A stretch of DNA of 23,789 nt. It comes from Anaerolineales bacterium. GTDB lineage: Bacteria > Chloroflexota > Anaerolineae > Anaerolineales > Villigracilaceae. A model generated the notes under the pieces. The model made no database searches, had not been told where the DNA came from, and saw only the letters and a list, made by a program, of their open reading frames with translations. The translations under genes and the position numbers were made by a program. Shown in pieces: positions 2,149-17,129 of this stretch. Within the stretch, counting starts at the first letter, position 1. The number at the start of each line of letters is the position of its first letter. The stretch is from positions 1-23,789 of the forward strand of contig JAICRQ010000005.1 in NCBI GenBank assembly GCA_025966435.1. Direction: 5' to 3'.

Positions 2149-2480
2149 TATACTCCTCTGCTTGACAAGATTTACACGGTGGACTGGAGGATGGGCAATT
2201 CAGTGCCGTCATCCAATGACACGTGTGTAACTGTTATTAATATTGCTATTTCCCGCGATTTTACTACATTGCCAAAGCAGTACCCGTAAGTGGATCTTAA
2301 GCGCAAAAAAGGTCATAAAAGGTGCTTCTTTTCCATTTCCATGGTGCATTTTCTTTGTAACCTTTAGGCATATTTAGCGTCATGAGCGTATATCTGACAA
2401 ATCTACAATGTTTTGACTATTAATAGAAAGATCGAGATTGAGCAAGAGTGCTCGAACAGTTTTTATTGGCGAGGTGCCGA
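2149..2480. promoter_or_regulatory. Divergent intergenic region between the catabolic operon and the polysaccharide operon
   Basis: This 332-base stretch contains no convincing gene and must hold the start signals for both directions. A perfect 8-base palindrome, ACACGTGT, lies at 2219-2226, a possible but unproven operator for the minus-strand operon. On the minus strand I find no good sigma-70 hexamer pair. On the plus strand there is a weak candidate promoter at 2394-2423. The region is AT-rich, as is usual for promoter DNA. Confidence 0.45.
2394..2423 (+). promoter_or_regulatory. Candidate sigma-70-type promoter for the NusG paralogue / polysaccharide operon
   Basis: A CTGACA hexamer (2394-2399) and TATTAA (2418-2423) are separated by 18 bases, about 60 bases upstream of the ATG at 2481. 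The match to consensus is moderate, and AT-rich DNA makes chance matches common. No better pair was seen before the gene. Confidence 0.25.
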
Positions 2481-3005
2481 ATGCAATGGTATGTATTCCA
2501 GAGTAAATTTCAAAAAGAGAGCCTGGTTTGCGAACAGCTTCGCATTCGGAATGTCGATACCTTCTTTCCTCGCCTTTATGTGCAACCGGTCAATCCCCGC
2601 GCTCGCAGAATGAAACCTTACTTTCCTGGATACGTTTTCGGACGCCTTGACCTAGAACAGATTAGCAGGTCGATCATAGACTGGATCCCTGGAGTGATTG
2701 GGATTGTGAGCTTTGGGGGCGAACCAGTATCTGTGCCAGACCATCTGATTACTACGCTTCAACAGCACCTTAACGCCATCAATGCAGCGAAGCGCGAATT
2801 ATCTGAGAGGTTTCAACTTGGTGATTCGGTAGCCATTCAGGGAGGACCCTTTGCAGGTTATGAAGCGATTTTCAATTCTCGTTTGCCCGGGCGTAACCGG
2901 GTGGAAGTACTCTTGAAACTGCTTCAGGGTCCTCAGATACGTGTAGAACTACCAATACATCAAATTGCATTGAAAGATTCTTCGTTCGTAAAGAGAGCTT
3001 CTTAG
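2481..3005 (+). CDS. NusG paralogue, RfaH/UpxY/LoaP-type transcription antiterminator
   Basis: A 174-residue specialised NusG paralogue that would travel with RNA polymerase and let it read through a long operon. The NGN domain (about 1-100) begins with MQWYVFQSK and contains FPGYVFGR (48-55) and the PGV segment typical of the family. A KOW domain follows, starting near GDSVAIQGGPFAGYEA (114-129). I chose ATG 2481 over the upstream in-frame ATG at 2448 because GAGGTG (2471-2476) is correctly spaced and the family normally starts at the WYV strand. It is the first gene of a ~21 kb co-oriented run and sits directly before a duplicated ops-like leader, the usual arrangement for polysaccharide-operon antiterminators. 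Which subfamily (RfaH, UpxY or LoaP) it belongs to is not resolved. Confidence 0.88.
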   Translation: MQWYVFQSKFQKESLVCEQLRIRNVDTFFPRLYVQPVNPRARRMKPYFPGYVFGRLDLEQISRSIIDWIPGVIGIVSFGGEPVSVPDHLITTLQQHLNAINAAKRELSERFQLGDSVAIQGGPFAGYEAIFNSRLPGRNRVEVLLKLLQGPQIRVELPIHQIALKDSSFVKRAS

Positions 3006-3026: not shown

Positions 3027-3120
3027 CTCTTAGCTAGGCTGCTCGTCTTGTCCTGGCCCTTACATTTTAGCATTCTCTTTTCATTCGATACTACAGATGT
3101 GTCGAAATGGCGGAGCGCGG
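3027..3120 (+). repeat. Leader direct repeat, copy A (hairpin plus ops-like element)
   Basis: This is the first copy of an imperfect ~95-base direct repeat, with roughly 20 differences from copy B by eye. It begins with CTCTTAGC and ends with GGCGGAGCGCGG (3109-3120). Just before that end, TTCGATAC (3084-3091) can pair with GTGTCGAA (3099-3106), giving an 8-pair stem with one G-U and a 7-base loop. The GGCGGAGCGCGG element closely resembles the E. coli ops core GGCGGTAGC with one base removed. Confidence 0.85.
3109..3120 (+). promoter_or_regulatory. Candidate ops-like antiterminator recruitment site 1
   Basis: GGCGGAGCGCGG differs from the start of the E. coli ops element (GGCGGTAGC...) by loss of one T. 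It lies about 100 bases after the NusG-paralogue stop codon and 2 bases after a predicted RNA hairpin. GCG-GAG-CGC could itself form a very small non-template hairpin, which is a property of ops. The function is inferred from resemblance and position. Confidence 0.5.
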
Positions 3121-3144: not shown

Positions 3145-3239
3145 CTCTTAGCCTGACCGCTCATCCTGTCCTAGATCTTACATTTAGCATTCCGTTTCTC
3201 ATTCGATACGATTAGGTGTGTCGGAATGGCGGAGCGCGG
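3145..3239 (+). repeat. Leader direct repeat, copy B (hairpin plus ops-like element)
   Basis: The second copy of the leader repeat, shifted by 118-119 bases from copy A. The stem is preserved: TTCGATAC (3202-3209) pairs with GTGTCGGA (3218-3225), the A-to-G change converting an A-U pair to G-U, while the loop differs (8 bases). The stem is again followed by AT and GGCGGAGCGCGG (3228-3239). The E1-alpha Shine-Dalgarno AAAGGA (3248-3253) lies just downstream, so this copy sits within the 5' leader of the first enzyme gene. Confidence 0.85.
3228..3239 (+). promoter_or_regulatory. Candidate ops-like antiterminator recruitment site 2
   Basis: This is an exact 12-base repeat of site 1, 119 bases downstream, with the same hairpin-AT-element order. 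It is the last conserved block before the E1-alpha ribosome binding site. Exact conservation of the 12-mer within a repeat whose other parts have drifted suggests that this segment is under selection. Confidence 0.5.
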
Positions 3240-3261: not shown

Positions 3262-4215
3262 ATGCTCACCCTTGTAAATTCCCCCTCACCAGATCAACAA
3301 AACATGGCAAGGGACCTCACTGAAGTGTTTTACCGCCAAATGTATACAATCCGCAAAGTTGAGCAAAATCTTCTTGATTTGTTTGCACAAGGCTACATCA
3401 CAGGCACCGTCCATACATCTATGGGACAGGAAGCCTGTGATGTTGGAGTAGTCAATTCTCTTGACCGGTCAAAAGATATTATTTTTTCTAATCACCGCGC
3501 GCATGGACAGTTTTTGGCATATTGTGATGATGTAGAAGGATTGATCGGCGAAATCATGGGTAAAGAGACCGGCGTTTGCCTAGGCATTGGTGGGAGCCAA
3601 CATATACACAGAGAAAATATGTACACCAATGGCGTGCAGGGAGGGATTGTTCCAAACGCCGTTGGAGCTGCGCTCGCAGAAAAAATCAAGGGGACCGGCG
3701 CGATTACTGTTGTATTTTTAGGGGATGGCACAATGGGTGAAGGGGTAGTTTACGAGAGTTTTAACATCGCTTCTTTATGGTCATTACCAGTATTGTTTCT
3801 GCTGATCGATAACGGTATCGCGCAAAGCACACCAAAACACCTGGAACATGCTGGCGAACTCGAAACTCGAGCAATGACTTTTGCGATTGACAGTGCATCC
3901 ATTGAAGCTGACGATGTCAATAAGGTTTATTCGACTGCTTGCGAGGTTGTGAATAAAGTGCGCGAGCATTCAAGACCTTTTTTCCTTCATGTTAAGGCGG
4001 CTCGGCTGGGTCCACATAGCAAAGGGGATGATACCCGGTCGAAAGAGGAAATCGAGTCCCTCAAGCAAAAAGATCCTTTGTTGAAAATCTCAGAGAGTCT
4101 GCCCGTAGGTCTTCGAATGGAGATCGAACAGAAGATCGATGTTCGTATTCAAACAGCAGTTGAAAAAGCAATGCTGGCCAGCCATCCCGGGCTAGAACAA
4201 TTGCGGAGGGTATAA
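3262..4215 (+). CDS. 2-oxoacid dehydrogenase E1 alpha subunit (pyruvate/acetoin dehydrogenase type), thiamine diphosphate dependent
   Basis: A 317-residue alpha subunit of an alpha2beta2 E1 enzyme, which decarboxylates a 2-oxoacid (pyruvate, a branched-chain 2-oxoacid, or acetoin) and passes the acyl group to a lipoyl arm. Visible motifs are NHRAHG (77-82), GIGGSQH (108-114), the ThDP/Mg motif GDGTMGEG (154-161) and its partner DNGIAQST (183-190), plus PHSKGDDTR near residue 255. The usual ENN reads IDN here, but the Asn matching the Mg ligand (Asn184) is kept. Start ATG 3262 has AAAGGA 8 bases upstream. The beta subunit follows 2 bases after the stop. Finding E1 genes at the head of a polysaccharide operon, next to a lipoyl-sugar acyltransferase fusion, argues against a housekeeping complex. 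The substrate is unknown. Confidence 0.9.
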   Translation: MLTLVNSPSPDQQNMARDLTEVFYRQMYTIRKVEQNLLDLFAQGYITGTVHTSMGQEACDVGVVNSLDRSKDIIFSNHRAHGQFLAYCDDVEGLIGEIMGKETGVCLGIGGSQHIHRENMYTNGVQGGIVPNAVGAALAEKIKGTGAITVVFLGDGTMGEGVVYESFNIASLWSLPVLFLLIDNGIAQSTPKHLEHAGELETRAMTFAIDSASIEADDVNKVYSTACEVVNKVREHSRPFFLHVKAARLGPHSKGDDTRSKEEIESLKQKDPLLKISESLPVGLRMEIEQKIDVRIQTAVEKAMLASHPGLEQLRRV

Positions 4216-4217
4216 CC

Positions 4218-5234
4218 ATAGCCGGATTAACTTTTCTAGAAGGTGTGCGCGCTGGGCTTTTCCAAGTGATGGAAAAGGACCCGAACGCGATTCTTCTGGG
4301 CGAAGATATTTTGGATCCATACGGGGGAGCATTTAAAGTAACAAAGGGCCTTTCTACTAAGTTTCCACAGCGGGTATTCACCACACCCATCAGCGAAGCA
4401 TCCATTGCAGGCCTTACTGTTGGGATGGCCTTACGGGGAATGCGTCCCATCGCTGAGTTTATGTTCGGCGACTTTATCACATTGGCTGCGGATCAAATCG
4501 TCAACCATGCTGCAAAGTATATGGGGATGTATGGCGATCAGATGAAGCTTCCAATGGTGCTTCGCACGCCAGTCGGCGGGGGACGTGGATATGGCCCCAC
4601 CCATAGTCAATCCTTAGAGAAGATGTTCCTCGGCTTGCCCATGTTTCATATACTTGCCCCCTCTCATTTCGTTCATCCAGGCGAAATCTTGGTGCAAGCC
4701 ATCTCAGGAAGTTACCCCACTCTATTTCTTGAAAATAAGCTGCTCTATCCAGAAGTGTTGAAGCTTGAACAACATAGCGGGGTCATCAATCGCACAGTAC
4801 ATTTCGATGAGCATAATTATCCTGTTGTCGTACTCTCGAACTTTCCCGACAAGCGCAAAGCGGATATCGCAATCGTAGCGTATGGCGGGATCAGTCGGTT
4901 ACTAGGACCCGTCCTGAACCAACTTGCACAAGAAGAAATATGGATAACAGCCTGTTTACCCGTCTCCTTGAGCCCTCTACCCATCAAACATATCCAGGCT
5001 ACGACGGAAGGAATAAAAAAGATCCTGGTGATCGAAGAAGCTTCACCTGCGTTTGGATGGGGATCAGAAGTATCAGCAGCCCTGTATGACGCACATGCGG
5101 GACAGTTGGATGGACCTATCCTTCGAATCGGAGCAGCAAATTCTGTCATTCCAGCTTCCAAACCTCTGGAGGAAAAAGTGATTGTTTCAGAAGAGAAGAT
5201 TCTATCGGCTGTGTTTGAGGTGATGGCATGGTAA
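4218..5234 (+). CDS. 2-oxoacid dehydrogenase E1 beta subunit, apparent ATA start
   Basis: This is the partner of the E1 alpha subunit, together forming the thiamine-diphosphate site. Family motifs are GED (28-30), PISEAS with the cofactor-activating Glu60, GGGRGYGPTHSQS (120-132, His129), and the C-terminal VIPASKPLEEKV region. Homology to E1 beta starts at LTFLEGVRAGL, upstream of the first ordinary start codon (GTG at 4245). In frame, an ATA at 4218 lies 8 bases after GGAGG (4205-4209), so initiation at ATA or a sequencing or mutational change from ATG is likely. The GTG at 4245 has no properly spaced ribosome binding site and would delete a conserved helix. The 3' end overlaps the next gene by 7 bases. 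The substrate cannot be told from the sequence. Confidence 0.85.
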   Translation: MAGLTFLEGVRAGLFQVMEKDPNAILLGEDILDPYGGAFKVTKGLSTKFPQRVFTTPISEASIAGLTVGMALRGMRPIAEFMFGDFITLAADQIVNHAAKYMGMYGDQMKLPMVLRTPVGGGRGYGPTHSQSLEKMFLGLPMFHILAPSHFVHPGEILVQAISGSYPTLFLENKLLYPEVLKLEQHSGVINRTVHFDEHNYPVVVLSNFPDKRKADIAIVAYGGISRLLGPVLNQLAQEEIWITACLPVSLSPLPIKHIQATTEGIKKILVIEEASPAFGWGSEVSAALYDAHAGQLDGPILRIGAANSVIPASKPLEEKVIVSEEKILSAVFEVMAW

Positions 5235-6397
5235 AAGTTCTGCCTGTCAAAATGCCTAAAGTCAGTCCAAATGATGACAACGGCACGATTGTCGAATGGT
5301 TGCGTGCAACCAGTGAGGAGGTCAACAAAGGCGAGATTCTATGTATAGTCGAAACGACCAAGAGCATATTTGAGATCGAATCGCCTTCAGGTGGCTACTT
5401 TTTCCCTCTGAGTAGTGTGGGAGAAGCTGTTGATGTCGGCGTAACAATTGGGGCAATTACGGACACGCAGGTTACCCAGGAAGAAGTAATTCATCTGCTG
5501 GAACAAGAAGAGCAACCCCAAGAAATTGCAGCCCCTGTCCCCGTAACCAACGAATCAACCCTGACCATCAAGGCCCAATTACTGGCGAAACGTCTCGGCA
5601 TTAATCCAGCTGAGCTTCCTCAAAATGGCCAAAGGATCACCGAAGAAGATGTAAAGAAATATGCCGAAAGCAGAAACACAAGCCTACATTCAGACCGCCT
5701 TGAAATGGATACAGTCCGAGATCGTTATCCTGAGGGGAAAATCCAGAGAATTCTCATCATCGGCGGTGGAGATGGAGCAGTGCAACTGTTAGATGTTCTG
5801 GCGAAAACGCCGGAGCAACAGGCGGTCGCTATCCTTGATGATAATCCTGAATTACGCGGAAAAAAAGTGAACGGGGTACCGGTCACCGGCGGTATTGACG
5901 TAGAGCAGATCGTTGCTTTGTATGAGCAGGATGAGTTTGACGCCGCCATTATTTCTATCAGCACAATCATAAAACTAAGAGCTGAGATTTTCGAGAAGCT
6001 CAAAAGCAGAGGGATCCCTTTTGCAAATATTATCCATCCCTCGGTTGTTAAAGGCTTCAACGTGAAGATGGGGGAAGGGAATGTAATTATGGCTTTTACA
6101 CACCTAGGTGCCTGCGCCAGCTTGGGCGATAACAATTTTATCAGCGCCTATTGCAGTATTGAGCATCATAACGAAATGGGAAATCACTGCAGTTTTGGTC
6201 CAGGTGTCGTTACATCCAGCCGGGTAATCTTCGGAGATCAGGTACGTTGCGGCACTGGCATCTTTATCGAACCGAAAATCCATATCGGCGCTAAGGCTGT
6301 GATTGGCTCCGGATGCATCATCTGGCAGAATGTGCCCGACGGCGCTATTCTCAAATCAAAGCTCAATTATGTTGAACGTGCCAGCAATAAGAAGTAA
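5228..6397 (+). CDS. Lipoyl domain / E1-E3-binding domain / NeuD-PglD-type sugar acyltransferase fusion
   Basis: A 389-residue fusion. Residues 1-80 are a lipoyl domain with the acceptor Lys45 in VETTKSIFE. After an acidic/proline linker, residues 113-146 look like a peripheral subunit-binding domain (LLAKRLGI ... GQRITEEDVKKYA), the part of E2 that docks E1 or E3. Residues 172-389 are a NeuD/PglD-like acyltransferase: a nucleotide-sugar-binding Rossmann-like part starting IIGGGDGA, then left-handed beta-helix hexapeptides with IEHHN, where His313 aligns with the family's catalytic His. The E2 catalytic core with HxxxDG is absent. The usual GxPAK/R ending of this acyltransferase family is replaced by AILKSKLNYV. 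It overlaps E1 beta by 7 bases. I infer acyl transfer from the lipoyl arm to an amino sugar; use of acyl-CoA instead is not excluded. Confidence 0.88.
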   Translation: MVKVLPVKMPKVSPNDDNGTIVEWLRATSEEVNKGEILCIVETTKSIFEIESPSGGYFFPLSSVGEAVDVGVTIGAITDTQVTQEEVIHLLEQEEQPQEIAAPVPVTNESTLTIKAQLLAKRLGINPAELPQNGQRITEEDVKKYAESRNTSLHSDRLEMDTVRDRYPEGKIQRILIIGGGDGAVQLLDVLAKTPEQQAVAILDDNPELRGKKVNGVPVTGGIDVEQIVALYEQDEFDAAIISISTIIKLRAEIFEKLKSRGIPFANIIHPSVVKGFNVKMGEGNVIMAFTHLGACASLGDNNFISAYCSIEHHNEMGNHCSFGPGVVTSSRVIFGDQVRCGTGIFIEPKIHIGAKAVIGSGCIIWQNVPDGAILKSKLNYVERASNKK

Positions 6398-6410
6398 CCA
6401 GACAATAACT

Positions 6411-7109
6411 ATGTGGGACGAAAATATGCAAACAGATATTACTGTAAAAAATGTAACCAGTAGCGAGAGAAAACAATCTTCCTATTTCACTCTACTAAAA
6501 CCAGTTCTTGATTATTTCGTTGCAGCCATTTTACTCATTATTACATCTCCCTTGTTTCTGGTTGTTTCTATTGGGATTAAGTTACATTCCCCTGGTCCCG
6601 TTTTTTTCTATCAGAAACGCATAGGGAAAGATGGCAAACCATTTCGGATGATCAAATTCCGGTCCATGCGCGTTAATGCAGACTCCACTCCTCACAAGGA
6701 ATACGTTCAGTCGCTTATCAAACAAAACACCCGACCGAGAGATCTGGGAAAAGAGACTCTCAAGTTAGAAGCGGAAGCAGACTCACGTATTACCGGATTA
6801 GGCAAATTCTTACGTTCATTCGGATTGGATGAATTGCCACAATTGATCAATGTTTTGAAGGGAGAGATGAGCATCGTTGGACCTCGCCCCTCTCTCGATT
6901 ATGAACTCGAAGTATACGAAGAATGGCATAAGCAGCGCCTGGCAGTTCTTCCTGGAATCACGGGCGTCTGGCAGGTCACTGCACATAACTCTGTTCCGTT
7001 CAACGAAATGGTGCAGATTGATATGGATTACATTCAAAATGCAAGTCTCTGGCTCGACCTGAAGGTTATGTTGCTAACACCAATCGAAATGCTCAAGAAG
7101 AAGGGTTAA
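6411..7109 (+). CDS. Initiating sugar-phosphate transferase, monotopic phosphoglycosyl transferase (WcaJ/PglC superfamily)
   Basis: A 232-residue short-form phosphoglycosyl transferase that moves a phospho-sugar from a nucleotide sugar to undecaprenyl phosphate, the first membrane step of repeat-unit assembly. The N-terminal membrane hairpin spans about 32-57 with a central Ser-Pro. The conserved KFRSM (82-86), the catalytic Asp140-Glu141 dyad in LDELPQL, GEMSIVGPRP (151-160) and PGITGVWQV (181-189) are all present. The start is uncertain: ATG 6411 is used here, while ATG 6426 has a weak GGGA upstream. An in-frame ATG at 6303 was rejected because it lies inside the preceding gene. Its likely donor is the modified sugar made by the neighbouring genes, which is inference. 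Confidence 0.92.
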   Translation: MWDENMQTDITVKNVTSSERKQSSYFTLLKPVLDYFVAAILLIITSPLFLVVSIGIKLHSPGPVFFYQKRIGKDGKPFRMIKFRSMRVNADSTPHKEYVQSLIKQNTRPRDLGKETLKLEAEADSRITGLGKFLRSFGLDELPQLINVLKGEMSIVGPRPSLDYELEVYEEWHKQRLAVLPGITGVWQVTAHNSVPFNEMVQIDMDYIQNASLWLDLKVMLLTPIEMLKKKG

Positions 7110-7113
7110 CAAA

Positions 7114-8196
7114 ATGGAAATCAGCTTGATCCCGCAGGATTTGAAATCACATCCAATGTCTCCAAATGGGGATGAGGTACAGACGATTCGCGTTGGCGTG
7201 ATTGGATGCGGTTATTGGGGACCAAAATTGGCCCGCAACTTTCATGATCTCCCCGGAACCAGCCTGGGGGCCATCTCGGACATGCGACCGGATCGGCTCA
7301 ACGAGATGAAACAACTATATCCGGAAACGCATACGACCCATAACCACCGGGACCTGCTGGGAGATGGCATCGATGCAGTTGCTATTGCTACCCCCGTTCA
7401 CACGCACTATGCACTGGCTAAAGAAGCTCTTCTGGCTGGGAAACACGTATTTGTCGAAAAGCCGTTGGCATCTGGTTCGTCCCAGGCTATGGAACTTGTG
7501 GAAATCGCAGCTCAGAAGAACCTCACCTTGATGGTTGGGCACACGTTCGTATACAACCCAGCTGTAGAGGCAGTGCGCGAGATCGTCCTCTCGGGCCAGA
7601 TGGGCAGTATTTATTACCTAAACTCTACACGCGCGAACCTTGGTCTGCTTCAGCCGGATATCAACGTGATGTGGGACCTCGCCCCTCATGATATTTCGAT
7701 GCTCTCTTACATTTTGAACAGGCAGCCTTACTCGGTGAGCGCACGCGGGGCGACCTACGTGAATCAGTACCGCAATCTGCATGAAGTTGTTTACCTGAGC
7801 ATCCTATTCGATGGAGGAATTATGGCAAATCTGCGGCTTAGCTGGCTAGATCCAGTTAAGCAACGATGCCTCACTATAGTTGGCAGCCAAAAGATGCTTG
7901 TTTATGACGATATTGCCGAAAACAAGGTAATCATTTTCGATAAGGGCGTGGATGTTCACCCTTACTCCGTTACCGAAGAACAGTTTCGCGCTTCTTATCG
8001 TCACGGTGAAGAGACGATTTACCCGATCACCTGGCGCGAGCCACTCCTGGTCGAGTGCGAGCACTTCGCCGATTGCATTCGAAATCAAAAACAGCCGCGT
8101 AGCAATGGTCAACAAGGGGTAAATGTGATCAAGGTGCTTGAGACCGCCCAGCGTTCGCTTCAGAACGGCGGCGTAGAACTAATTGTGGAGTATTAG
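7114..8196 (+). CDS. Gfo/Idh/MocA family NAD(P)-dependent sugar dehydrogenase
   Basis: A 360-residue oxidoreductase. The Rossmann motif GCGYWG is at 31-36, the family signature VEKPLA at 114-119 with the substrate-binding Lys116, and WDLAPHD at 187-193 carries the expected catalytic His192. Members of this family in polysaccharide loci (for example WbpB and WlbA) oxidise C3 of a nucleotide sugar ahead of transamination. The start ATG is preceded by AAGAAGG, only 4 bases after the previous stop. Followed 4 bases downstream by a DegT-type aminotransferase, it fits a two-step keto-to-amino conversion. The precise nucleotide sugar and carbon position are inferred from analogy, not read from the sequence. 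Confidence 0.88.
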   Translation: MEISLIPQDLKSHPMSPNGDEVQTIRVGVIGCGYWGPKLARNFHDLPGTSLGAISDMRPDRLNEMKQLYPETHTTHNHRDLLGDGIDAVAIATPVHTHYALAKEALLAGKHVFVEKPLASGSSQAMELVEIAAQKNLTLMVGHTFVYNPAVEAVREIVLSGQMGSIYYLNSTRANLGLLQPDINVMWDLAPHDISMLSYILNRQPYSVSARGATYVNQYRNLHEVVYLSILFDGGIMANLRLSWLDPVKQRCLTIVGSQKMLVYDDIAENKVIIFDKGVDVHPYSVTEEQFRASYRHGEETIYPITWREPLLVECEHFADCIRNQKQPRSNGQQGVNVIKVLETAQRSLQNGGVELIVEY

Positions 8197-8200
8197 AACC

Positions 8201-9385
8201 ATGAATACTAAAGAAATGATAGCTTTTGTTGATCTTCATGCCCAGCACGCCCCCATTCTCGATGAAATCCATGCCGCAATAAATGAAATACTCTCGAATT
8301 CTTCGTTTATCGGCGGGACAGCAGTTTCCCAGTTCGAAGCCGAATTTGCCCAGTATTTAGGCGTTCAGGAAGTTATTGGGGTCGGAAATGGAACAGATGC
8401 ACTTTGGCTGGCACTCGTCGCTAATGGGATTGGCCCCGGAGATGCCGTTATCACAGTTCCGAATACATTTATCGCAACGGCCGAAGGCATCACCCGAGCA
8501 GGTGCCCATCCACTGTTCGTCGACATCGATATTGAAACAGCCAATCTTTCGCCCGTGGCGCTGAATGAATTCCTGGCCAATCAATGCGCTGTTGATGATA
8601 ATGGTCACCTTCGCCATGTCCAGTCAGGCACCCGGGTAGCAGCCGTGATGCCAGTACACCTGTACGGTCTTCCGGCCGATCTCTTGGCGATTTCAGAAAT
8701 TTGCGAGCAACACCAGCTCACATTGATCGAAGATGCTTGCCAGGCGCACGGTGCCAAAATACGAGTGAATGGTGAATGGAAACGAGCAGGGACATTCGGT
8801 GCTGCCGCAGCCTTCAGTTTCTACCCGGGAAAAAATTTAGGCGCAATTGGCGATGCAGGAGCCGTGGTAACAAACAACCCTGAAGCCGCCGCAAAAATGC
8901 GCGAACTGCGCAGTCATGGGTCCAGTGAGAAATATATCCATACTACCCACGAGGGATGGAATGCCCGACTCGATGCAATCCAGGCAGCTGTGCTTTCGAT
9001 CAAGTTACGTTATCTGGATGAATGGAATGAGTGCCGCTATCAGGCCGCTCAGTGGTATCGGCAAGGTCTGGCCGGATTACCAATTGAGCTACCTTATGAA
9101 CCTGAAGATCACCAGCATGTCTATCATCTGTATGTAGTACGAACCGAACAACGAGACGAAGTGCGAAAAGCCCTGCTCGACTACGGGATTGAGACTGGTA
9201 TTCATTATCCCATTCCTCTCCACCTGCAGCAGGCTTACAATTGGATGAACCTGCCTCTCGGCAGCTTCCCAAATGCTGAACGTTCTGCCCAGACAATTTT
9301 ATCTCTGCCGATGCACCCTTACCTCAGCCAACAACAGGTGGAGCATGTATGCCAGGCGTTCAAATCAGTGCTATCTGATAAATAA
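8201..9385 (+). CDS. DegT/DnrJ/EryC1/StrS-type PLP-dependent sugar aminotransferase
   Basis: A 394-residue aminotransferase of the nucleotide-sugar type. FVDLHAQHAPI near the N-terminus, GNGTDAL, IEDACQAHGA and the Schiff-base lysine Lys211 in FYPGKNLGA are all present, followed by GDAGAVVT and the C-terminal HVYHLYVVR region. It would transfer an amino group, normally from glutamate, to the keto-sugar produced by the adjacent dehydrogenase. I placed the start at ATG 8201, with GGAG 10 bases upstream and 4 bases after the previous stop; a TTG at 8183 inside the previous gene is less likely. The amino sugar produced is the best candidate acceptor for the lipoyl-linked acyltransferase upstream. 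Confidence 0.92.
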   Translation: MNTKEMIAFVDLHAQHAPILDEIHAAINEILSNSSFIGGTAVSQFEAEFAQYLGVQEVIGVGNGTDALWLALVANGIGPGDAVITVPNTFIATAEGITRAGAHPLFVDIDIETANLSPVALNEFLANQCAVDDNGHLRHVQSGTRVAAVMPVHLYGLPADLLAISEICEQHQLTLIEDACQAHGAKIRVNGEWKRAGTFGAAAAFSFYPGKNLGAIGDAGAVVTNNPEAAAKMRELRSHGSSEKYIHTTHEGWNARLDAIQAAVLSIKLRYLDEWNECRYQAAQWYRQGLAGLPIELPYEPEDHQHVYHLYVVRTEQRDEVRKALLDYGIETGIHYPIPLHLQQAYNWMNLPLGSFPNAERSAQTILSLPMHPYLSQQQVEHVCQAFKSVLSDK

Positions 9386-9405
9386 AGCAGAAAAGAGAGA
9401 TGGAT

Positions 9406-10284
9406 ATGGAACGACGTTTAATTTTACGATCCATGGCACGACGATGGTGGATATTCCTGGTGGTACTTCTGATCACCGTAGGAACCACTCTATTTCTAAC
9501 CTTGCGAGAAACTCCCATATATAGAGCCAAGGCTACCTACGTTACGCGTTTGAGCGCTGAAATCACTGACGCGAAAACAGAGTCAACGGTTCTGGATAGC
9601 CTAAACAGATATGTGGAGCTGCAGGGAACCTATTCCGAAATCGCGATGAGCCAAGCGATCAAGCGACAGGCAGGCAAAAAAATTGGTATCACAGGCAGCG
9701 AGCTACGCAAGCTCTCGGTCAGCAGCCGGACTTTGCCAGGGTCTAGAATACTCGAAATATCAGTTCAAGGGGAAGATCCGCAGTTGATCCGTGATTTCAC
9801 TACGGCTGTTGGGGAAGAAACAATGACGTATGTCAACAATCTTTACCCATCTTACGAACTTACCCTTTTAGATGACCCCAATGCTCCTAATACACCGATC
9901 AGCCCAAAAATCCCCTACAACTTAATTGTGGGCACTCTGCTAGGTGCATTTTTAGGAGCAATAGCTCTCTTGTTGTCCTCCTGGTTGCGCGGTGACTTTA
10001 AAGGGATCCAAGCTATTCAAAGCGATCAAGGAGAACCAAGCGCGCTCCTGCCACTGAAAAGCGAACTTGGGTTTCTCATGCAACAGTGTGAATTAATCCG
10101 CGCTGAGCTTAACGAGACTCGCGAGATCATCCATAATACAGAGAACGAGGCTAGGGCACTCCGTACTGTGCTGAACAACTGGTCAAAGAACGGTAGTTCA
10201 CAGGGTAGAGGCAAGAAAACGGAAGTTCAGCCAGAAGAGCAAAATGAAACCGGCCACTTGGAACACGAATCCCCCAGCGAGTGA
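9406..10284 (+). CDS. Wzz-like polysaccharide chain-length determinant protein with a cytoplasmic tail
   Basis: A 292-residue membrane protein of the Wzz/polysaccharide co-polymerase group, which sets polymer length together with Wzy. TM1 is about residues 14-33, an extracytoplasmic domain follows, and the proline-rich segment NAPNTPISPKIP leads into TM2 (about 172-195). After TM2 there is a ~95-residue hydrophilic tail with a likely coiled coil (about 218-260) rather than a BY-kinase domain, and no Walker motif. ATG 9406 is preferred because GAGAG lies 6 bases upstream; an in-frame ATG at 9400 would be too close. The 3' end overlaps the flippase gene by 41 bases. Sequence conservation is low in this family, so the call rests on topology, motif and context. 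Confidence 0.78.
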   Translation: MERRLILRSMARRWWIFLVVLLITVGTTLFLTLRETPIYRAKATYVTRLSAEITDAKTESTVLDSLNRYVELQGTYSEIAMSQAIKRQAGKKIGITGSELRKLSVSSRTLPGSRILEISVQGEDPQLIRDFTTAVGEETMTYVNNLYPSYELTLLDDPNAPNTPISPKIPYNLIVGTLLGAFLGAIALLLSSWLRGDFKGIQAIQSDQGEPSALLPLKSELGFLMQQCELIRAELNETREIIHNTENEARALRTVLNNWSKNGSSQGRGKKTEVQPEEQNETGHLEHESPSE

Positions 10285-11836
10285 AATAATCGAAACAAGC
10301 CAGGAAGCAGGGACCACTCAGAACGAACAGAATATGCTCGTGACCGCAAAAGGCGGGGGTGTATTGTTGTTCGGCCGGCTGGTGACCTATGTTGCCCGCT
10401 TTGCCATCACCTTTGTTTTAGCCCGTCTCATGGGCGCAGAAAACTATGGCTTGTATAACCTGGCCATCTCAGCCGCTATGATTGCCGGTGCGATTTCGGT
10501 GTTTGGTCTGGATACAACCATGACGCGCTACATCGCAATTCTCAACGGCCGGAAGGACCGTCGCGGAGTATGGGGCGCCATTCAGATTGGGATCGGGGGA
10601 GCATTGCTCCTCAGTGTGTTGACCAGCACCGCACTGTTCTCACTTTCGTCTCTGATCGCAGAACATGCATTTCACGAATCTCGGCTTGCGCCGCTCCTGC
10701 AAATCGCCAGCCTGACCGTCCCCTTCCTTGCCATGAGCGATGTCCTGGCCGGGGCGACACGCGGCTTCAAGCGCATGTCAGACACAGTCATCGCCCAAAA
10801 TATTGTCCAGCCAGTAATTCGCCTGGGTTTGATAATTCTGCTGGCTGCAGTTGGGTTCAGTACCCCGGTCGCGATCCTTATTTTTGGCTTGTCTGACCTA
10901 TGCGCTTCCTTGGTTCTGTTGTATCTTCTCAACAAACGATTCAATCTGAAGCGGTCGCTGGCAACCGGAACGCGGAACCTGGGTGAGCTATTTGGGTTCA
11001 CCCTCCCGCTCGGCCTGTCCGATTTGATGACGACTTTCCGTAGTTATCTGCAAACGCTTCTCATTGGCTCGTTAGATACGGTCCGCGGAGTTGGGGTGTT
11101 TTCCATCGCTAACCAGGTAAACCAAATTGGGAACATGTTTCATGCATCGATGAATCAATCCGCCCGGCCCTTGATCGCAGAACTCAGCGATCAAGGGAAA
11201 CAACCCCAGGTTGAGCATATCTACCAGACAACAACTCGTTGGATGGTGACCTTAAATATGCCCATGATTCTGATCGTGACACTTTTTCCTGTACAAGTCA
11301 TCTCTATTTTTGGCAAGAGCTTTCTAGAAGGTGCGCCCGCCCTAGCGATCATGGGGCTGGTTAATCTATTCAATGTAGCGACGGGTATGTGCGGGACGAT
11401 CCTTGATATGACGGGACACACGCGCATGAAATTGTTCAATACAATCATACGGGTCAGTGTTGCCATTCTCGCCAATTTCCTGCTTATCCCTCGCTTTGGG
11501 GTTACCGGAGCCGCCATTGCAGCCCTTATTCATGAGGTAATTGCCAATGTGCTGCCCATGATCCAGTTGTGGTTCCTTTACCGCATTCTTCCCTACAACC
11601 CGCATATCCTGAAGCCACTTGCTGCTGGAGTGCTTGCCGCCGGTGGAGCTCTGGTTATGCGTACCTGGCTACCCAGTTCAGGTAACCTGTTACTCACTAT
11701 TCTTCATATGTTGGTGACGCTGGCCATATATGCGGCAGTGGTTCAACGATTTGGGCTGTCATCAGAAGAGCTCATGGTAGTTAACCGGATACGCCGCCGA
11801 GTAGGCACGCTGCTTTCGCGGCTCACGCCATCGTAA
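10244..11836 (+). CDS. Polysaccharide flippase, Wzx-like (MOP exporter superfamily)
   Basis: A 530-residue multi-pass membrane protein with about 12-14 hydrophobic segments. A ~40-residue polar N-terminal extension is followed by the family's usual opening KGGGVLLFGRLVTYVARF and LARLMGAENYGLYNLA. Flippases of this type move undecaprenyl-linked repeat units across the inner membrane. The ATG at 10244 has GAAGAG just upstream. A later ATG at 10334 would give a protein without the polar extension and remains possible. The position between the Wzz-like and Wzy-like genes is typical of a Wzx/Wzy-dependent pathway. Confidence 0.9.
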   Translation: MKPATWNTNPPASEIIETSQEAGTTQNEQNMLVTAKGGGVLLFGRLVTYVARFAITFVLARLMGAENYGLYNLAISAAMIAGAISVFGLDTTMTRYIAILNGRKDRRGVWGAIQIGIGGALLLSVLTSTALFSLSSLIAEHAFHESRLAPLLQIASLTVPFLAMSDVLAGATRGFKRMSDTVIAQNIVQPVIRLGLIILLAAVGFSTPVAILIFGLSDLCASLVLLYLLNKRFNLKRSLATGTRNLGELFGFTLPLGLSDLMTTFRSYLQTLLIGSLDTVRGVGVFSIANQVNQIGNMFHASMNQSARPLIAELSDQGKQPQVEHIYQTTTRWMVTLNMPMILIVTLFPVQVISIFGKSFLEGAPALAIMGLVNLFNVATGMCGTILDMTGHTRMKLFNTIIRVSVAILANFLLIPRFGVTGAAIAALIHEVIANVLPMIQLWFLYRILPYNPHILKPLAAGVLAAGGALVMRTWLPSSGNLLLTILHMLVTLAIYAAVVQRFGLSSEELMVVNRIRRRVGTLLSRLTPS

Positions 11837-11886
11837 TACTCCTATACACGAAAAACAGTCGGCGATTAAAACAGAGAGGTTTGTTT

Positions 11887-12612
11887 ATGATCATTAGCCA
11901 TAAGTACAAGTATGTGTTTGTTGAATATCCGCGCACAGGAACTACGGCTGTTAGCAACGAATTGTGCCAGAACTATTCTGGCAAGCGCATCCTACGCAAG
12001 CACAGCACCTACCAGGAGTTTCTGAAGATCGCTTCGCCAGAAGAGAAGAAATACTTCGTCTTTACCAGTGTCCGCAATCCACTCGACGACGCGGTTAGCC
12101 ACTATTTCAAACTCAGAACGGATCATCGCGATCGCTATACCAATCGAAAGAAAGTGCGTAATGGAAAGCGTCTGGCAGAATATTTCGATGCGTATATTTT
12201 TCGATATATCCAAAACCATGATGTTGATTTTCCAACCTACTTCCGCAGGTTTTATGTAATTCCCCACAACACTTGGTCGACCATATCGATCAAGCGCTAC
12301 AACCACATCATGCGCTTCGAGAGCTTGCCGGAAGATTTCGCTCATGTGCTGAAGCTTCTGGGGATTGATCCGGTCCGTCCTCTACCGCAGCGTAATGTAA
12401 CCGGCGAGCGGAAGAAGGAATACTGGATGTACTACACGCCGGAGATCATTCCGCGGGCAAGGCGTATCTTTGGGCCGTTTATGAAGCAGTGGGGATACGA
12501 ATTCCCGAAAGAATGGGGCGAACAGCCCATCTCGTTCTGGAACCAGATGGAATATAAGTTTTTCACTTTATTCCGCCGGGTATACTGGAGCGTCCTACGC
12601 GAGCACATTTAA
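11887..12612 (+). CDS. Sulfotransferase family protein (ST1)
   Basis: A 241-residue PAPS-dependent sulfotransferase-like protein, which would transfer sulfate from PAPS to a sugar hydroxyl or amine. The 5'-phosphosulfate loop is PRTGTT (15-20) and the 3'-phosphate site is RNPLDDAVS (63-71), with Arg63 and Ser71 at the classic spacing. The start is ATG 11887 with AGAGAGG 7 bases upstream; a TTG two codons earlier is in frame but weaker. It differs in motif wording and length from the tandem block further on, so it is likely an independent lineage. It sits between the flippase and polymerase-like genes. The substrate is not predictable. Confidence 0.85.
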   Translation: MIISHKYKYVFVEYPRTGTTAVSNELCQNYSGKRILRKHSTYQEFLKIASPEEKKYFVFTSVRNPLDDAVSHYFKLRTDHRDRYTNRKKVRNGKRLAEYFDAYIFRYIQNHDVDFPTYFRRFYVIPHNTWSTISIKRYNHIMRFESLPEDFAHVLKLLGIDPVRPLPQRNVTGERKKEYWMYYTPEIIPRARRIFGPFMKQWGYEFPKEWGEQPISFWNQMEYKFFTLFRRVYWSVLREHI

Positions 12613-12629
12613 AAGGATAGCAGAACCGC

Positions 12630-14138
12630 ATGCAAACGCAACAAACGCGAGTCAATATGATCGGAGCCTGGCTGTCGCAGGTGACCGGCATCCGCCGGAT
12701 GGGTGAGACCGGCGGGCCAACTACCTTATCCACGTGGCTTCCGCTGGTAGTAGGGGGAATCCTTGGGATCCTAGGCGCGTACCTCCTCATCCAGCAGAAC
12801 GTGGTGGCATTGCTTGCGATCTTGCTGATCGTGCCCATGCTGCTACTATTCTTCTACTATCCCTTCATCACCGTTATCATCTGGCTACTGGTATTCCCAT
12901 TTTTCCTGAGCGAAGTTCTGCCCGGGGCGCGACCCCTATACTGGCTGCTCCACCGGGCGATGATCCCAGGTGCACTGTTAGCGTTGCTTGGACTATCAAT
13001 CCTTGGGATTCGGAAGATTAAAAACGTGCGCTTCGGGCTCGTGGATGGCGTGATGCTCGCATACCTGGTGCTTTGTGTCTGCAATATTCTCCTGCTTACT
13101 GCCAGGCCAAATTCGCAGCTTATCCATCTCTATGACCGTATTTTCGTGCCGTTCTGTATGTACTGGCTGATCCGCGTGACCCGGCCTGGTCAAATGGACT
13201 TGGAACGGCTTGCCCCCGTAGCCTTCATCATCATTTTTTCACAGGGAACCATTGGAATCCTTAGTTGGTTTGCACCGGGGGTCCTGCCACCTAAATGGTT
13301 AGGCCGGTTAGGCGAACGAACCGTGGGCACCTTTGGGAACCCGGCGGTTTTCACGACCACATTGCTTTTTGCTGTGGTGATCCTAACGGAGACATTGTGG
13401 CGCGGCTCTAACCGAAAAAAATTGCAAATGGCCGTGTCTTTTCTGACAGTAGCATTTGCGTTCTTCCTCGTATTTTTCTCGTTCTCGCGGGGCAGTTGGT
13501 TAGGTGCCCTCCCGGTCTGGCTTGGGCTGTACATTCTCCACCCCAAGTGGATGAGGCGCTTGAGCCTGGTGGGCTCAATTGCACTCGTTCCCCTATTGGC
13601 GCTGGGTCCGCTGGCTGAATATTCCTCATTTGCTTCAGAGCGCCTGTTTACGGAAACTACAGCCGAGGGTCGCGTAATCGGGGGAGCGGCAACCTTCCGG
13701 ATGATCCAGGAAAGACCAGTTTTTGGCTGGGGCTATCGCAACCATGAGCTTTACGACGAGCAATTCCGTGACCGTGTGATGGGGCTTGTAGACAGCAAAG
13801 AGCAGAGTTCACACAACACCTACCTGCTGATTGCCGCCGAGATGGGCATCCCAGGATTGATTCTGTACTACCTTCCAATCGGCTTGCTCCTATATCTAAC
13901 CATAAAGTACTGGCACAGGCTGCCAGACACCCGGATCTGGAGCAGATCTCTTGTGCTGATGCTCTGGCTGTTGATCGTTGACCATGTCATAGTCGGGCTA
14001 TTCACTGATATGATTCAGTCCCCTTTCTTTAACACAACCATCTGGTGGCTGGCACTTGGACTGATTGCAAATGCCATCGATGCAGGCAGGAATTCTACAG
14101 TTACGTCACAAAGTAAGCAACTGCAAACAATTGGATAG
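12630..14138 (+). CDS. O-antigen ligase / polymerase family membrane protein (Wzy-like)
   Basis: A 502-residue protein with about 11-12 hydrophobic segments. It carries the Wzy/WaaL-family signatures FSFSRGSWLG in the mid region and, in the large loop before the C-terminal helices, SSHNTYLLIAAEMG with His395. A GWGYRN segment precedes the loop, also common in this family. Polymerases of this group join undecaprenyl-linked repeat units on the outer face of the inner membrane; ligases of the same fold attach finished chains to a carrier. With Wzx- and Wzz-like neighbours, polymerase is the likelier role, but sequence alone does not separate the two. AAAGGA lies 12 bases before the ATG. Confidence 0.85.
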   Translation: MQTQQTRVNMIGAWLSQVTGIRRMGETGGPTTLSTWLPLVVGGILGILGAYLLIQQNVVALLAILLIVPMLLLFFYYPFITVIIWLLVFPFFLSEVLPGARPLYWLLHRAMIPGALLALLGLSILGIRKIKNVRFGLVDGVMLAYLVLCVCNILLLTARPNSQLIHLYDRIFVPFCMYWLIRVTRPGQMDLERLAPVAFIIIFSQGTIGILSWFAPGVLPPKWLGRLGERTVGTFGNPAVFTTTLLFAVVILTETLWRGSNRKKLQMAVSFLTVAFAFFLVFFSFSRGSWLGALPVWLGLYILHPKWMRRLSLVGSIALVPLLALGPLAEYSSFASERLFTETTAEGRVIGGAATFRMIQERPVFGWGYRNHELYDEQFRDRVMGLVDSKEQSSHNTYLLIAAEMGIPGLILYYLPIGLLLYLTIKYWHRLPDTRIWSRSLVLMLWLLIVDHVIVGLFTDMIQSPFFNTTIWWLALGLIANAIDAGRNSTVTSQSKQLQTIG

Positions 14139-14141
14139 CTC

Positions 14142-15125
14142 ATGACTACTCAAGAAATGATTCTCCCCAAACAAAACGACGCTTCTTTCGAAGCTACAAA
14201 GCAGACTGATGTATCTTCTGGTTATATCTTTATTGTTGGACTCAGCCGCAGTGGAACAACGCTTATGCGGAATGTCCTCAACCAATCCGATTGGATTGCG
14301 ATTTCACGCGAAAATCATTTTCTGGGGCACCTGATTGGCGCGGAGGGCATGCGGCAGAAGTTCCGCAAGTTTGGTGATCTATCAATCGATCAGAATGTAC
14401 ATAATCTGGTGGACCATCTATACTCTGGCGGATCAGAGCGCAGCTCATGGTTCCGCAAGGCTAGTTCGCATTGGCGCTGGATCACCCGGCGGGTAGATAA
14501 GCAAGAATTTACTCAAAAACTACTGGAAACAGACCGCAGCGAGCGTGCCTTTTTTATACTTTTGATGCAGTTGTTTGCTGATAAAAAAGGGAAGCCCATT
14601 ATGGGTGAAAAAACGCCTGCGCACTTTCGTTATGTCGAAACACTGCTGAACTGGTTTCCGGAAGCAAAGATCATTCACATGATGCGTGATCCGAGGGGTA
14701 TTTTTGTTTCCGAATGGCGCAGGCGGCAGAAAGAGGCGCAATCATTCCCCTACCGACAGCTAAAGCAATTACCGTTTCTGATGAAACTAGTCATATTGCT
14801 TCAGACAACTATCACTTGGCGCGAAGGCGCGCGGCGCTGTCGAGAAAATCAGAACAAATATCCTCTAAATTACTACACGCAGCGTTTCGAGGGCCTTGTC
14901 AGTGATCCAGAAGTACAAGTGAAAGAACTCTGTGCCTTTATTGGCGTGCCTTTTCAGCCTGCTATGCTGGAACAGACCGTAGTCAGCATGGGTTTTCAGG
15001 AAAAACAAACGGGTTTCGATTCTGGTGCCGCGAATCGTTGGAAGAAGCATATCACACCCTGGATCGATGCCTGGTTCCGCTTCTGGCTTAGGGAAGATAT
15101 GGAAATCTTTGGGTACTCTAAATGA
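14142..15125 (+). CDS. Sulfotransferase family protein (ST2, type A)
   Basis: A 327-residue protein with canonical PAPS sites: SRSGTT (35-40) in FIVGLSRSGTTLMRN, GEKTPAH in the middle, and RDPRGIFVS with Arg182 and the Ser 8 residues later. A ~28-residue non-conserved N-terminal extension precedes the first strand. It resembles ST6 (18149) more than its immediate neighbours, sharing the GEKTPAH wording and the C-terminal RWKKH/RWRKH block followed by a WFRFWL/WFKFWL segment. Its stop overlaps the next gene by 4 bases (ATGA), so translation is coupled. It probably sulfates one position of the glycan repeat; the position is unknown. Confidence 0.87.
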   Translation: MTTQEMILPKQNDASFEATKQTDVSSGYIFIVGLSRSGTTLMRNVLNQSDWIAISRENHFLGHLIGAEGMRQKFRKFGDLSIDQNVHNLVDHLYSGGSERSSWFRKASSHWRWITRRVDKQEFTQKLLETDRSERAFFILLMQLFADKKGKPIMGEKTPAHFRYVETLLNWFPEAKIIHMMRDPRGIFVSEWRRRQKEAQSFPYRQLKQLPFLMKLVILLQTTITWREGARRCRENQNKYPLNYYTQRFEGLVSDPEVQVKELCAFIGVPFQPAMLEQTVVSMGFQEKQTGFDSGAANRWKKHITPWIDAWFRFWLREDMEIFGYSK

Positions 15126-16189
15126 AAGATAGAACAGCCAGCCTTCAACCAGAGAACCCTCCGCGTGGACCGATTTTTATTGGCGGTTTGGATCGCTGCG
15201 GAAAAACGACTATGCAGGCGTTTCTCTCTTCACATCCAAACATTGCCATTCCCGCAGTCGGTTCAAATTTCTGGTCATACTTTTACGGTCAATACGGTGA
15301 CTTGAGTGTCCCCGAGAACTTTGAGCGTTGCCTGACGGCATTGATGCATTATAAGCATGCCCTCTACCTACAGCCTGATTCTGAGCGAATCCGCAAAGAG
15401 TTCTGGCAGGGATCACCAACCTATGCGAGATTATTTGGCTTACTCCATCAGCATTATGCGGAACGAGCAGGGAAAACCCGCTGGGGCGACCAGACTGGTC
15501 TGATCGAACGCTACGCTGATCAGGTATTAGCTGCCTACCCTGGAGCCAAAATGATCCATATGATTCGTGATCCGCGCGATCGTTATGAGGCGTCAATTGC
15601 CATGTGGCCAAACGGCAAAGGCCGCTGCGGGGGCGCGACTGCGCGCTGGAAATATTCGGTCGCCCTGATGAGACGAAACCTTTCCTCTCATCCAGACCGC
15701 TACTTACCCGTACAATATGAGAAGCTAGTTCGTCAGCCGGAAGAGACACTGCGCAGCGTTTGTGAATTTATCGGAGAAACCTACACTCCAGCAATGTTAA
15801 CAATGGATGGATCTCCAGGTCACCGTGAAAAACTGGTTCAGAATGCCGAAACTTCTGAGCAACCTCTTTCCGAAAAATATATCGGAAGGTTCCGGCAATA
15901 CATTCCAAAAAAAGAAATCGTCTTTATCCAGCAGTATGCCAGAGATGAAATGCGACAGTTGGGGTATGCGCTTGAGCCAATCCGGTTCTCTCTCAAAGAA
16001 CGGGTTCAGTATGAAACTTGGACGCGACCAACCAACCTAGTCCGCATGATCAGCTGGCTGCTGGTGGAGTCCCTGCATCAGCGGTTCCCACGCCTGGCTG
16101 GCAGGCGGCCCTCAGAAGCGATGGTATTGCGATCTGGCAAAACCGGGAAGGTAAAACCCGCTACTTCAGCACGCCAGGGAGAAGGGTAA
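15122..16189 (+). CDS. Sulfotransferase-like protein with altered cofactor sites (ST3, type B)
   Basis: A 355-residue member of the tandem type B group (ST3-ST5). The fold cues are GPIFIGGLDRCGKTT (16-30), RYADQVLAAYPGAKMIHMIRDPRD around Arg149, and the ARWKYS and FIGETYTPAML blocks. Compared with ST5, the 5'-loop Thr is replaced by Lys28, giving a GKT that mimics a Walker A motif. The GDK lysine is Gln124, and the Ser expected 8 residues after Arg149 is Ala (a Ser follows at +9). These changes are shared with ST4. The overall architecture remains sulfotransferase, but cofactor use may differ. A ~70-residue basic C-terminal region extends past the core. Confidence 0.78.
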   Translation: MKDRTASLQPENPPRGPIFIGGLDRCGKTTMQAFLSSHPNIAIPAVGSNFWSYFYGQYGDLSVPENFERCLTALMHYKHALYLQPDSERIRKEFWQGSPTYARLFGLLHQHYAERAGKTRWGDQTGLIERYADQVLAAYPGAKMIHMIRDPRDRYEASIAMWPNGKGRCGGATARWKYSVALMRRNLSSHPDRYLPVQYEKLVRQPEETLRSVCEFIGETYTPAMLTMDGSPGHREKLVQNAETSEQPLSEKYIGRFRQYIPKKEIVFIQQYARDEMRQLGYALEPIRFSLKERVQYETWTRPTNLVRMISWLLVESLHQRFPRLAGRRPSEAMVLRSGKTGKVKPATSARQGEG

Positions 16190-16193
16190 ACCT

Positions 16194-17123: not shown

Positions 17124-17129
17124 TATACT

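Follow-up and report, generated by a model that had tools for sequence, protein, structure and literature searches.

A candidate lipoyl-dependent acyl supply line to amino sugars: E1 genes linked to a lipoyl-acyltransferase fusion gene in Anaerolineales

The DNA analyzed here (the window) is 23,789 nucleotides long and makes up the entire contig C371 (GenBank JAICRQ010000005.1) of an Anaerolineales bacterium, whose assembly (GCA_025966435.1) comprises 635 contigs and is 80% complete. At positions 3262-6397, three genes encode the alpha and beta subunits of a 2-oxoacid dehydrogenase (E1) and a 389-amino-acid fusion protein, in which a lipoyl domain and a segment resembling a peripheral-subunit-binding domain (PSBD) are followed by a PglD_N domain and a beta-helix; the acyltransferase (E2) core is absent (Table 1). 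A preliminary description, made from the sequence letters, had claimed a complete E1 and a lipoyl/NeuD-type fusion without an E2 core at this locus, which the Pfam domains and an alignment with the perosamine N-acetyltransferase PerB confirm.

Table 1. Positions of the E1-fusion gene set, the domains of the fusion and neighbouring genes in the window.
Feature	Position	Strand	Evidence
E1 alpha subunit, 2-oxoacid dehydrogenase	3262..4215	+	E1_dh PF00676, 167 bits; GDG..N motif; 6cer, E 2e-33
E1 beta subunit	4218..5234	+	Transket_pyr PF02779, 99.6 bits, and Transketolase_C PF02780, 52.3 bits (scan from 4245); 1ik6, E 1e-38; GGAGG at 4205-4209
Lipoyl/PSBD-like/NeuD-type acyltransferase fusion, 389 aa	5228..6397	+	Pfam, NCBIfam, PDB, alignment
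Lipoyl domain, residues 1-82	5228..5473	+	Biotin_lipoyl PF00364 at residues 7-75, 37.7 bits (cut-off 22.1)
Lipoyl Lys45 codon, motif ETTKS	5360..5362	+	Lys in 38/38 full-length fusions
PSBD-like domain, residues 113-146, shortened loop	5564..5665	+	Profile-profile 96%, E 3e-9; no Pfam call
PglD_N domain, residues 174-258	5747..6001	+	PF17836, 27.3 bits (cut-off 23.4)
Left-handed beta-helix acyltransferase domain, ~residues 278-372	6059..6343	+	Hexapep PF00132 at residues 278-312, 44 bits (cut-off 27); PerB 4ea7
Catalytic His313 codon	6164..6166	+	Aligned with PerB His141; His in 38/38
Sugar-phosphate transferase, starts glycan assembly	6411..7109	+	PF02397, 211 bits (scanned as 6303-7109); ATG at 6411
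Gfo/Idh oxidoreductase, proposed nucleotide-sugar 3-dehydrogenase	7114..8196	+	PF01408; UDP-GlcNAc 3-dehydrogenase model, 182 bits
DegT/StrS aminotransferase, proposed C3-aminotransferase	8201..9385	+	PF01041, 355 bits; PDB 7b0d (scan from 8204)
RfaH/NusG-like antiterminator, upstream of the set	2448..3005	+	PF02357, 57 bits
Wzz-like (below Pfam cut-off), flippase-like, sulfotransferase and Wzy_C-type genes of the same polysaccharide cluster	9400..14138	+	

The lipoyl, PglD_N and hexapeptide models are all matched above their cut-offs, and the NeuD model TIGR03570 reaches 138.7 bits, short of its curated cut-off of 160.8. The E2 core (PF00198) was not called in the window fusion by Pfam at E <= 0.1, nor is it among the 12 families matched by 38 full-length fusions from the genomes described below at E <= 0.01; the possibility that an ordinary E2 had been misread was rejected. 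For the lipoyl half, the nearest PDB chains are those of pyruvate dehydrogenase (PDH) E2, and for the acyltransferase half the nearest is PerB (4ea7, E 4.9e-20, residues 174-374). His313 aligns with His141 of PerB, whose mutants are named in the PDB titles of 4eaa (H141N) and 4eab (H141A), while the titles of other entries present the relatives PerB and PglB as complexes with coenzyme A (CoA) or acetyl-CoA. Among the PDB chains listed (35 for the window fusion, the best 60 of 133 for a profile of the fusions), the best stretch lies in either the E2-type or the NeuD half and never spans both. AlphaFold gave the whole fusion a mean pLDDT of 57.9, with residues 1-110 below 50 and no alignment there, and residues 1-161 alone scored 40.9; a Foldseek search with the whole-fusion model ranked Rex repressors, which match the Rossmann part, above PerB and VioB.

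Across the 38 full-length fusions, PF00364 is found in every protein and PglD_N in 37. Glu42, Thr43, Lys45 and His313 are invariant, so that both catalytic positions named in the preliminary description, the lipoyl lysine and the histidine, hold throughout; residue 44 is Thr in 36 fusions and Asp in two. Relatives lacking the lipoyl lysine had been named as grounds for refutation. Every full-length fusion keeps this residue, and standalone acyltransferase relatives that have no lipoyl domain do exist.

The subunit-binding domain claimed for residues 113-146 stands in part. Pfam's E3_binding model was not called there in the window fusion even at E <= 1, and was called in only two of the 11 members of set A1 (E <= 1) and one of the 38 fusions (E <= 0.01). 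A profile of 36 fusions (L079 and L080 left out) nevertheless matches a profile of 30 classical PSBDs over 30 columns with the probability given in Table 1, whereas the lipoyl, PglD_N and beta-helix segments each score below 1% against the same classical profile. AlphaFold predicts two helices at this segment (pLDDT ~70), and the profile of the 38 fusions matches the PDH E2 chain 3duf_I over positions 5-146, which take in both lipoyl domain and PSBD. From these results, we read the segment as probably a degenerate, altered PSBD, in which the GTGxxGR loop is shortened.

Including the window, lipoyl and NeuD halves are joined in one frame at 40 loci, 38 of which encode at least 330 amino acids; the shorter fusions L161 and L165 were left out of the 38, and L085, which has in-frame stops, was left out of set A3. 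The overlapping sets searched were 396 genomes of the class, 400 of the phylum, 158 of the class of genome G535, 46 and 20 of two families and 152 of the window's own family. The 40 loci are spread over six families (f1, f2, f18, f41, f110 and f112) and two classes, a range that is a lower bound, the profile search having covered the window's phylum. A plasmid collection yielded matches in 33 of 72,556 records, none covering 80% of the query and none a fusion; viral contigs yielded 17 NeuD-only loci and no fusion, and a genome contig collection one NeuD-only locus.

With L041, which is cut by a contig end, the neighbourhood could be surveyed at 41 loci. Within the stretch covered at each locus, both E1 genes share the strand of the fusion at 35 of them, and E1 beta alone does so at two more (L036 and L155), which brings same-strand E1 beta to 37/41; the preliminary description had suggested such a survey, and the linkage it sought recurs. 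The gene order can differ, as in G535, where the fusion precedes E1 alpha and E1 beta. At 16 loci, E1 beta and the lipoyl part are separated by 600-938 bases. Of the ten gapped loci inspected, L036 contains a 197-codon frame between E1 beta and the lipoyl part, and at each of the remaining nine a similar frame runs on the opposite strand. In L144 (3175-3843, genome G929), the only one of these opposite-strand frames that was scanned, it is a DUF4013 membrane protein gene; the other eight loci have similar frames, within part of what we call subfamily 2 below.

The E1 subunits themselves are of the heterotetramer type. The best solved relative of E1 alpha is human PDH E1 alpha (6cer), and E1 alpha carries the thiamine-diphosphate motif GDG..N. 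E1 beta probably starts at ATA 4218 rather than at GTG 4245 of the open reading frame list, because a Shine-Dalgarno-like GGAGG lies upstream and the later start would remove conserved residues. The E1 is likest pyruvate dehydrogenase, yet scores under the curated PDH cut-offs. In a tree reduced from 66 to 48 rows by leaving out 18 further E1 betas of subfamily 2, a branch (98/88) separates the 19 fusion-linked E1 betas from 28 of the 29 E1 betas encoded next to classical E2s; the remaining classical row, C_L076, has a very long branch.

We grouped the fusions into three subfamilies. Subfamily 1 comprises the window, G369, G336, G220, G123 and G765, with the arm motif ETTKS or ETTKV (cut off in G123), and probably also G250, judging by its E1 beta. 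Subfamily 2 holds the remaining 33 of the 40 loci, 11 of them placed by a NeuD tree, with ETTKA or ETTKS, and subfamily 3 consists of G535 and G660, with ETDKV. For this NeuD tree, which has 59 rows, the approximately unbiased (AU) test rejected a single clade of all 19 fusions (p 0.0022). A clade of subfamilies 2 and 3 was also rejected (p 0.037), whereas one of 1 and 3 was not (p 0.053); a clade of 1 and 2 was rejected (p 0.021), but not when four standalone relatives were admitted to it (p 0.11). The standalone proteins L053, L055, L056 and L164 are sisters of subfamily 2. A second NeuD tree omits L168, which is cut at a contig start, and the long branches L090, L003 and L084. In the lipoyl tree, 16 of the 18 fusions (subfamilies 1 and 2) fall on one side (99/96), and one clade of all 18 was not rejected over its 80 columns (p 0.21). 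An independent origin of each fusion group is weakly supported, given that the pairing of 1 and 3 was not rejected and that the lipoyl tree is compatible with a single clade. One E1-plus-lipoyl lineage that changed its acyltransferase partners would be a simple story, perhaps with a separate lipoyl origin in subfamily 3, and some lineages may have lost the lipoyl part.

The preliminary description had noted no dihydrolipoamide dehydrogenase (E3) in the window and had assigned its role to a housekeeping enzyme. None was seen in the window, and the genome does encode an E3 (TIGR01350, 582 bits) within a classical E1, E2 and E3 cluster on contig C531, as well as LipA (365 bits, above cut-off) and a second classical E2 on C149. 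Among the 44 genomes with whole or cut fusions, 42 have an E3-like match (E <= 1e-60), which is above cut-off in 40. G917 (93% complete, ~30 contigs) carries the E1-fusion set and an E3, and no E2 core or classical PSBD was found in it; G367 (94% complete) has E1, fusion and E3, and no classical PSBD or intact E2 core was found. What G367 does have is a 36-codon open reading frame (L203:752-862) similar to the C terminus of an E2 core; no full-length core was found in the rest of its assembly. No E2 core was found in G912 (94%), which has no E3 match either and a cut fusion, nor in the less complete assemblies (62-66%) of G858, G907 and G905. In any one genome without an E2 core, the core might lie on a missing contig.

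From the domain anatomy and the gene linkage, we infer a coupling of E1, lipoyl arm and sugar acyltransferase. We propose, with a probability of about 0.6, that the three genes encode a dedicated E1 and an unusual E2, the CoA-acyltransferase core of which has been swapped for an unrelated beta-helix sugar N-acyltransferase of the NeuD/PerB type, and that the acyl group would pass directly to an amino sugar without CoA. With thiamine diphosphate as its cofactor, E1 would decarboxylate pyruvate or a related 2-oxoacid and reductively acylate a lipoyl group on Lys45 of the fusion. The arm would then swing over to the beta-helix domain within the same assembly; there, a nucleotide-linked amino sugar, its amino group activated by His313, would take up the acyl group. 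The housekeeping E3, bound to the altered PSBD, would afterwards reoxidize the dihydrolipoyl group. Of the route from 2-oxoacid through acyl-lipoyl to amino sugar that the preliminary description had put forward, the coupling of E1 to a lipoyl-tethered sugar acyltransferase is well supported by the recurrence of the fusion, its same-strand E1 beta, the invariant Lys and His and the separate E1 beta clade; lipoylation, acylation by E1, direct CoA-free transfer and the nature of acyl group and sugar are the parts that we infer.

The proposed system can be compared with three known ones. It shares a heterotetramer-type E1, a lipoyl domain, a PSBD-like domain and a common E3 with the pyruvate, branched-chain and acetoin dehydrogenase complexes, and differs from them in its NeuD-type domain in place of PF00198, its shortened PSBD loop and its own E1 beta clade. 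PglD_N, beta-helix and catalytic His are common to the fusion and the sugar N-acetyltransferases NeuD, PerB, PglD and VioB; unlike these, the fusion has N-terminal lipoyl and PSBD-like domains and E1 neighbours, and it would use acyl-lipoyl in place of acetyl-CoA. LpxA and LpxD, distant PDB matches of the fusion, are likewise beta-helix acyltransferases and receive their acyl groups from the arm of acyl carrier protein (ACP) instead of from CoA, much as we propose here; their carrier is phosphopantetheinyl-ACP, whereas that of the fusion would be its own lipoyl domain, charged by a thiamine-diphosphate E1.

A number of observations weigh against the proposed direct transfer. Some E2-core match occurs in 39 of the 44 fusion genomes, including that of the window. 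No E1 was found in the stretch examined at four of the 41 loci (L038, L161, L079 and L142, the last with only 229 bases covered upstream of the fusion), and G220 and G660 are among the genomes that carry a fusion without E1 in the stretch examined. The PSBD lies under Pfam's reach and is unrecognizable in G535 and G660, and the lipoyl domains of these two group with classical E2 lipoyl domains (97/86). The GxPA tail motif, presumably with a role in CoA binding, speaks for direct transfer in being present in 34 of 40 standalone NeuDs versus two of 38 fusions. Those two fusions are again G535 and G660, however, and the standalone relatives L053, L055 and L056 of subfamily 2 are without it, so the motif does not track fusion cleanly and its loss is weak as proof that the CoA site was lost. 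At nine listed subfamily 2 loci (L040, L042-L045, L078, L138, L144 and L160), no Gfo/Idh or DegT gene like those of the window was seen, and the neighbours named by Pfam are bactofilin (L042), LysM (L160) and DUF4013 (L144).

The chief rival of direct transfer, which we hold to be unlikely, is that E1 and the lipoyl domain make acyl-CoA through a housekeeping E2 core in trans, and that the NeuD domain uses this acyl-CoA, its fusion serving to raise the local concentration. The two classical E2 cores in the window's genome, the CoA and acetyl-CoA in the PerB and PglB entries and the tail retained in G535 and G660 would all suit this account. G917 and G367 argue against it, both having the E1-fusion set, with no PF00198 match in the one and only the short remnant in the other. 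Classical E2 cores assemble into cages of 24 or 60 subunits that carry lipoyl domains of their own, which would make service in trans awkward. Slightly less probable again is a lipoyl domain that acts as a tether or as a redox or regulatory element, with NeuD using acetyl-CoA alone and E1 and lipoyl domain serving another reaction, such as carboligation or aldehyde formation on a sugar. The nearness of the NeuD halves to CoA-binding enzymes and the lack of E1 in the stretch examined at L038 and L079 speak for this possibility; the prevalence of same-strand E1 beta and the invariant ETxK point instead to an arm loaded by E1, and regulation would not need a dedicated E1.

Direct lipoyl transfer might also hold with an acceptor other than an amino sugar in most copies, such as a hydroxyl, a lipid or protein amine or a cell-envelope precursor, as the nine subfamily 2 loci flanked by bactofilin, LysM, DUF4013 and other genes rather than sugar clusters would suggest. 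We consider this improbable, since PglD_N, which we take to bind the nucleotide sugar in PglD, is retained in nearly all fusions, and the copies of the window, G765, G123, G535 and G660 sit amid polysaccharide genes. An assembly or binning artefact, joining an E2 fragment to a NeuD gene, was a concern in such a fragmented and incomplete assembly, and the 17 other genus members listed gave no match at E <= 1e-50. The preliminary description had counted an artefact as a refutation; the same join in 40 loci from six families and two classes refutes that explanation, to which we assign almost no probability.

If acyl groups do pass directly from the lipoyl arm, 2-oxoacids could serve as the immediate acyl source for the N-acylation of surface sugars, and the acyl groups would not have to occur as CoA esters. 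We would give even odds to the broader idea that sugar acyltransferases have a third class of donor besides acyl-CoA and acyl-ACP, namely acyl-lipoyl formed on site by a dedicated thiamine-diphosphate E1, and that E2 has been re-tooled, perhaps repeatedly, by the attachment of acyltransferases of unrelated fold. The lipoyl swinging arm, the textbook device of CoA-forming complexes and glycine cleavage, would then also feed glycan modification, through a redox-coupled N-acylation that is independent of CoA and has a 2-oxoacid specificity of its own. From the sequence of an E1, it might become possible to predict unusual acyl groups on surface polysaccharides, and the three genes would offer a self-contained system in which to study how a beta-helix acyltransferase switches its donor.

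The genes around the set bear on the acceptor. Downstream of the fusion, the window carries the sugar-phosphate transferase, Gfo/Idh and DegT genes and, after these, Wzz-like, flippase-like and Wzy_C genes together with seven sulfotransferase genes. For the Gfo/Idh product, the 182 bits of its best NCBIfam model, UDP-GlcNAc 3-dehydrogenase, fall under the cut-off of 450, and its PDB matches are mixed Gfo/Idh enzymes. In the PDB, the DegT product matches 7b0d best, an entry named glutamine--scyllo-inositol transaminase; QdtB (3frk) and 2oga come next, with WbpE (3nyu/3nu7) lower; QdtB and WbpE we take to be C3-aminotransferases. Given this C3-aminotransferase-like DegT and its Gfo/Idh partner, the acceptor in the window is most likely a nucleoside-diphosphate (NDP)-3-amino sugar made by these two enzymes, whose genes lie 0.7-3 kb downstream.

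A similar setting can be found at other loci. G765 is nearly colinear with the window, in the order E1 alpha, E1 beta, fusion, DegT, sugar-phosphate transferase, Gfo/Idh, Wzz-like, flippase-like and sulfotransferase-like, and its genes are 39-65% identical to those of the window (Gfo/Idh, DegT and sugar-phosphate transferase 65, 54 and 55%). In G535, sugar-phosphate transferase and Gfo/Idh genes precede the fusion and E1 genes, and DegT and Wzz follow them (Gfo/Idh, DegT and sugar-phosphate transferase 49, 48 and 42% identical to the window's). Sugar-phosphate transferase (46%) and Gfo/Idh (49%) genes adjoin the fusion in G660, and a Wzy_C gene adjoins the subfamily 1 fusion in G123. The fusion of G336 has aldo/keto reductase and cation ATPase genes among its neighbours, and that of G220 an acetyl xylan esterase gene. 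We read the Gfo/Idh and DegT genes that accompany the set in the window, G765 and G535 as a 3-amino-sugar pathway. An amino-sugar acceptor is supported for some of the copies in polysaccharide clusters only.

The seven sulfotransferase genes of the window (11881-19063 and 22559-23479) belong to one polysaccharide cluster and suggest that the surface polysaccharide produced is sulfated. In G765, an adenosine phosphosulfate (APS) kinase and an ATP-sulfurylase/phosphodiesterase fusion are encoded upstream (L136:14282-17586), and the product of L136:3083-3808, which matches no Pfam family at E <= 0.001, is yet 56% identical to the window sulfotransferase at 11881-12612. A bactofilin-type gene lies beside a standalone NeuD-type gene in G253 (L082:8802-10018) and beside the fusion in G243, G263 and G357 (L042:9061-10672), a label that comes from Pfam for L042 and from similarity for the other loci; the gene adjoining the L042 bactofilin is one that we take to encode a prolyl-tRNA synthetase.

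Upstream of the set, the product of the RfaH/NusG-like gene scores 91.3 bits with the RfaH model, below its cut-off of 144.5. Between this gene and E1 alpha, two near-identical 26-base repeats (92%) occur at 3095-3120 and 3214-3239, 119 bases apart. The pair is a possible regulatory element; it does not match the RfaH ops consensus, which was found at chance level only. On the minus strand, a family 4 glycosidase gene (844-2148) adjoins a gene (107-847) that we read as putatively glucosamine-6-phosphate-deaminase-like, and the two diverge from the polysaccharide cluster.

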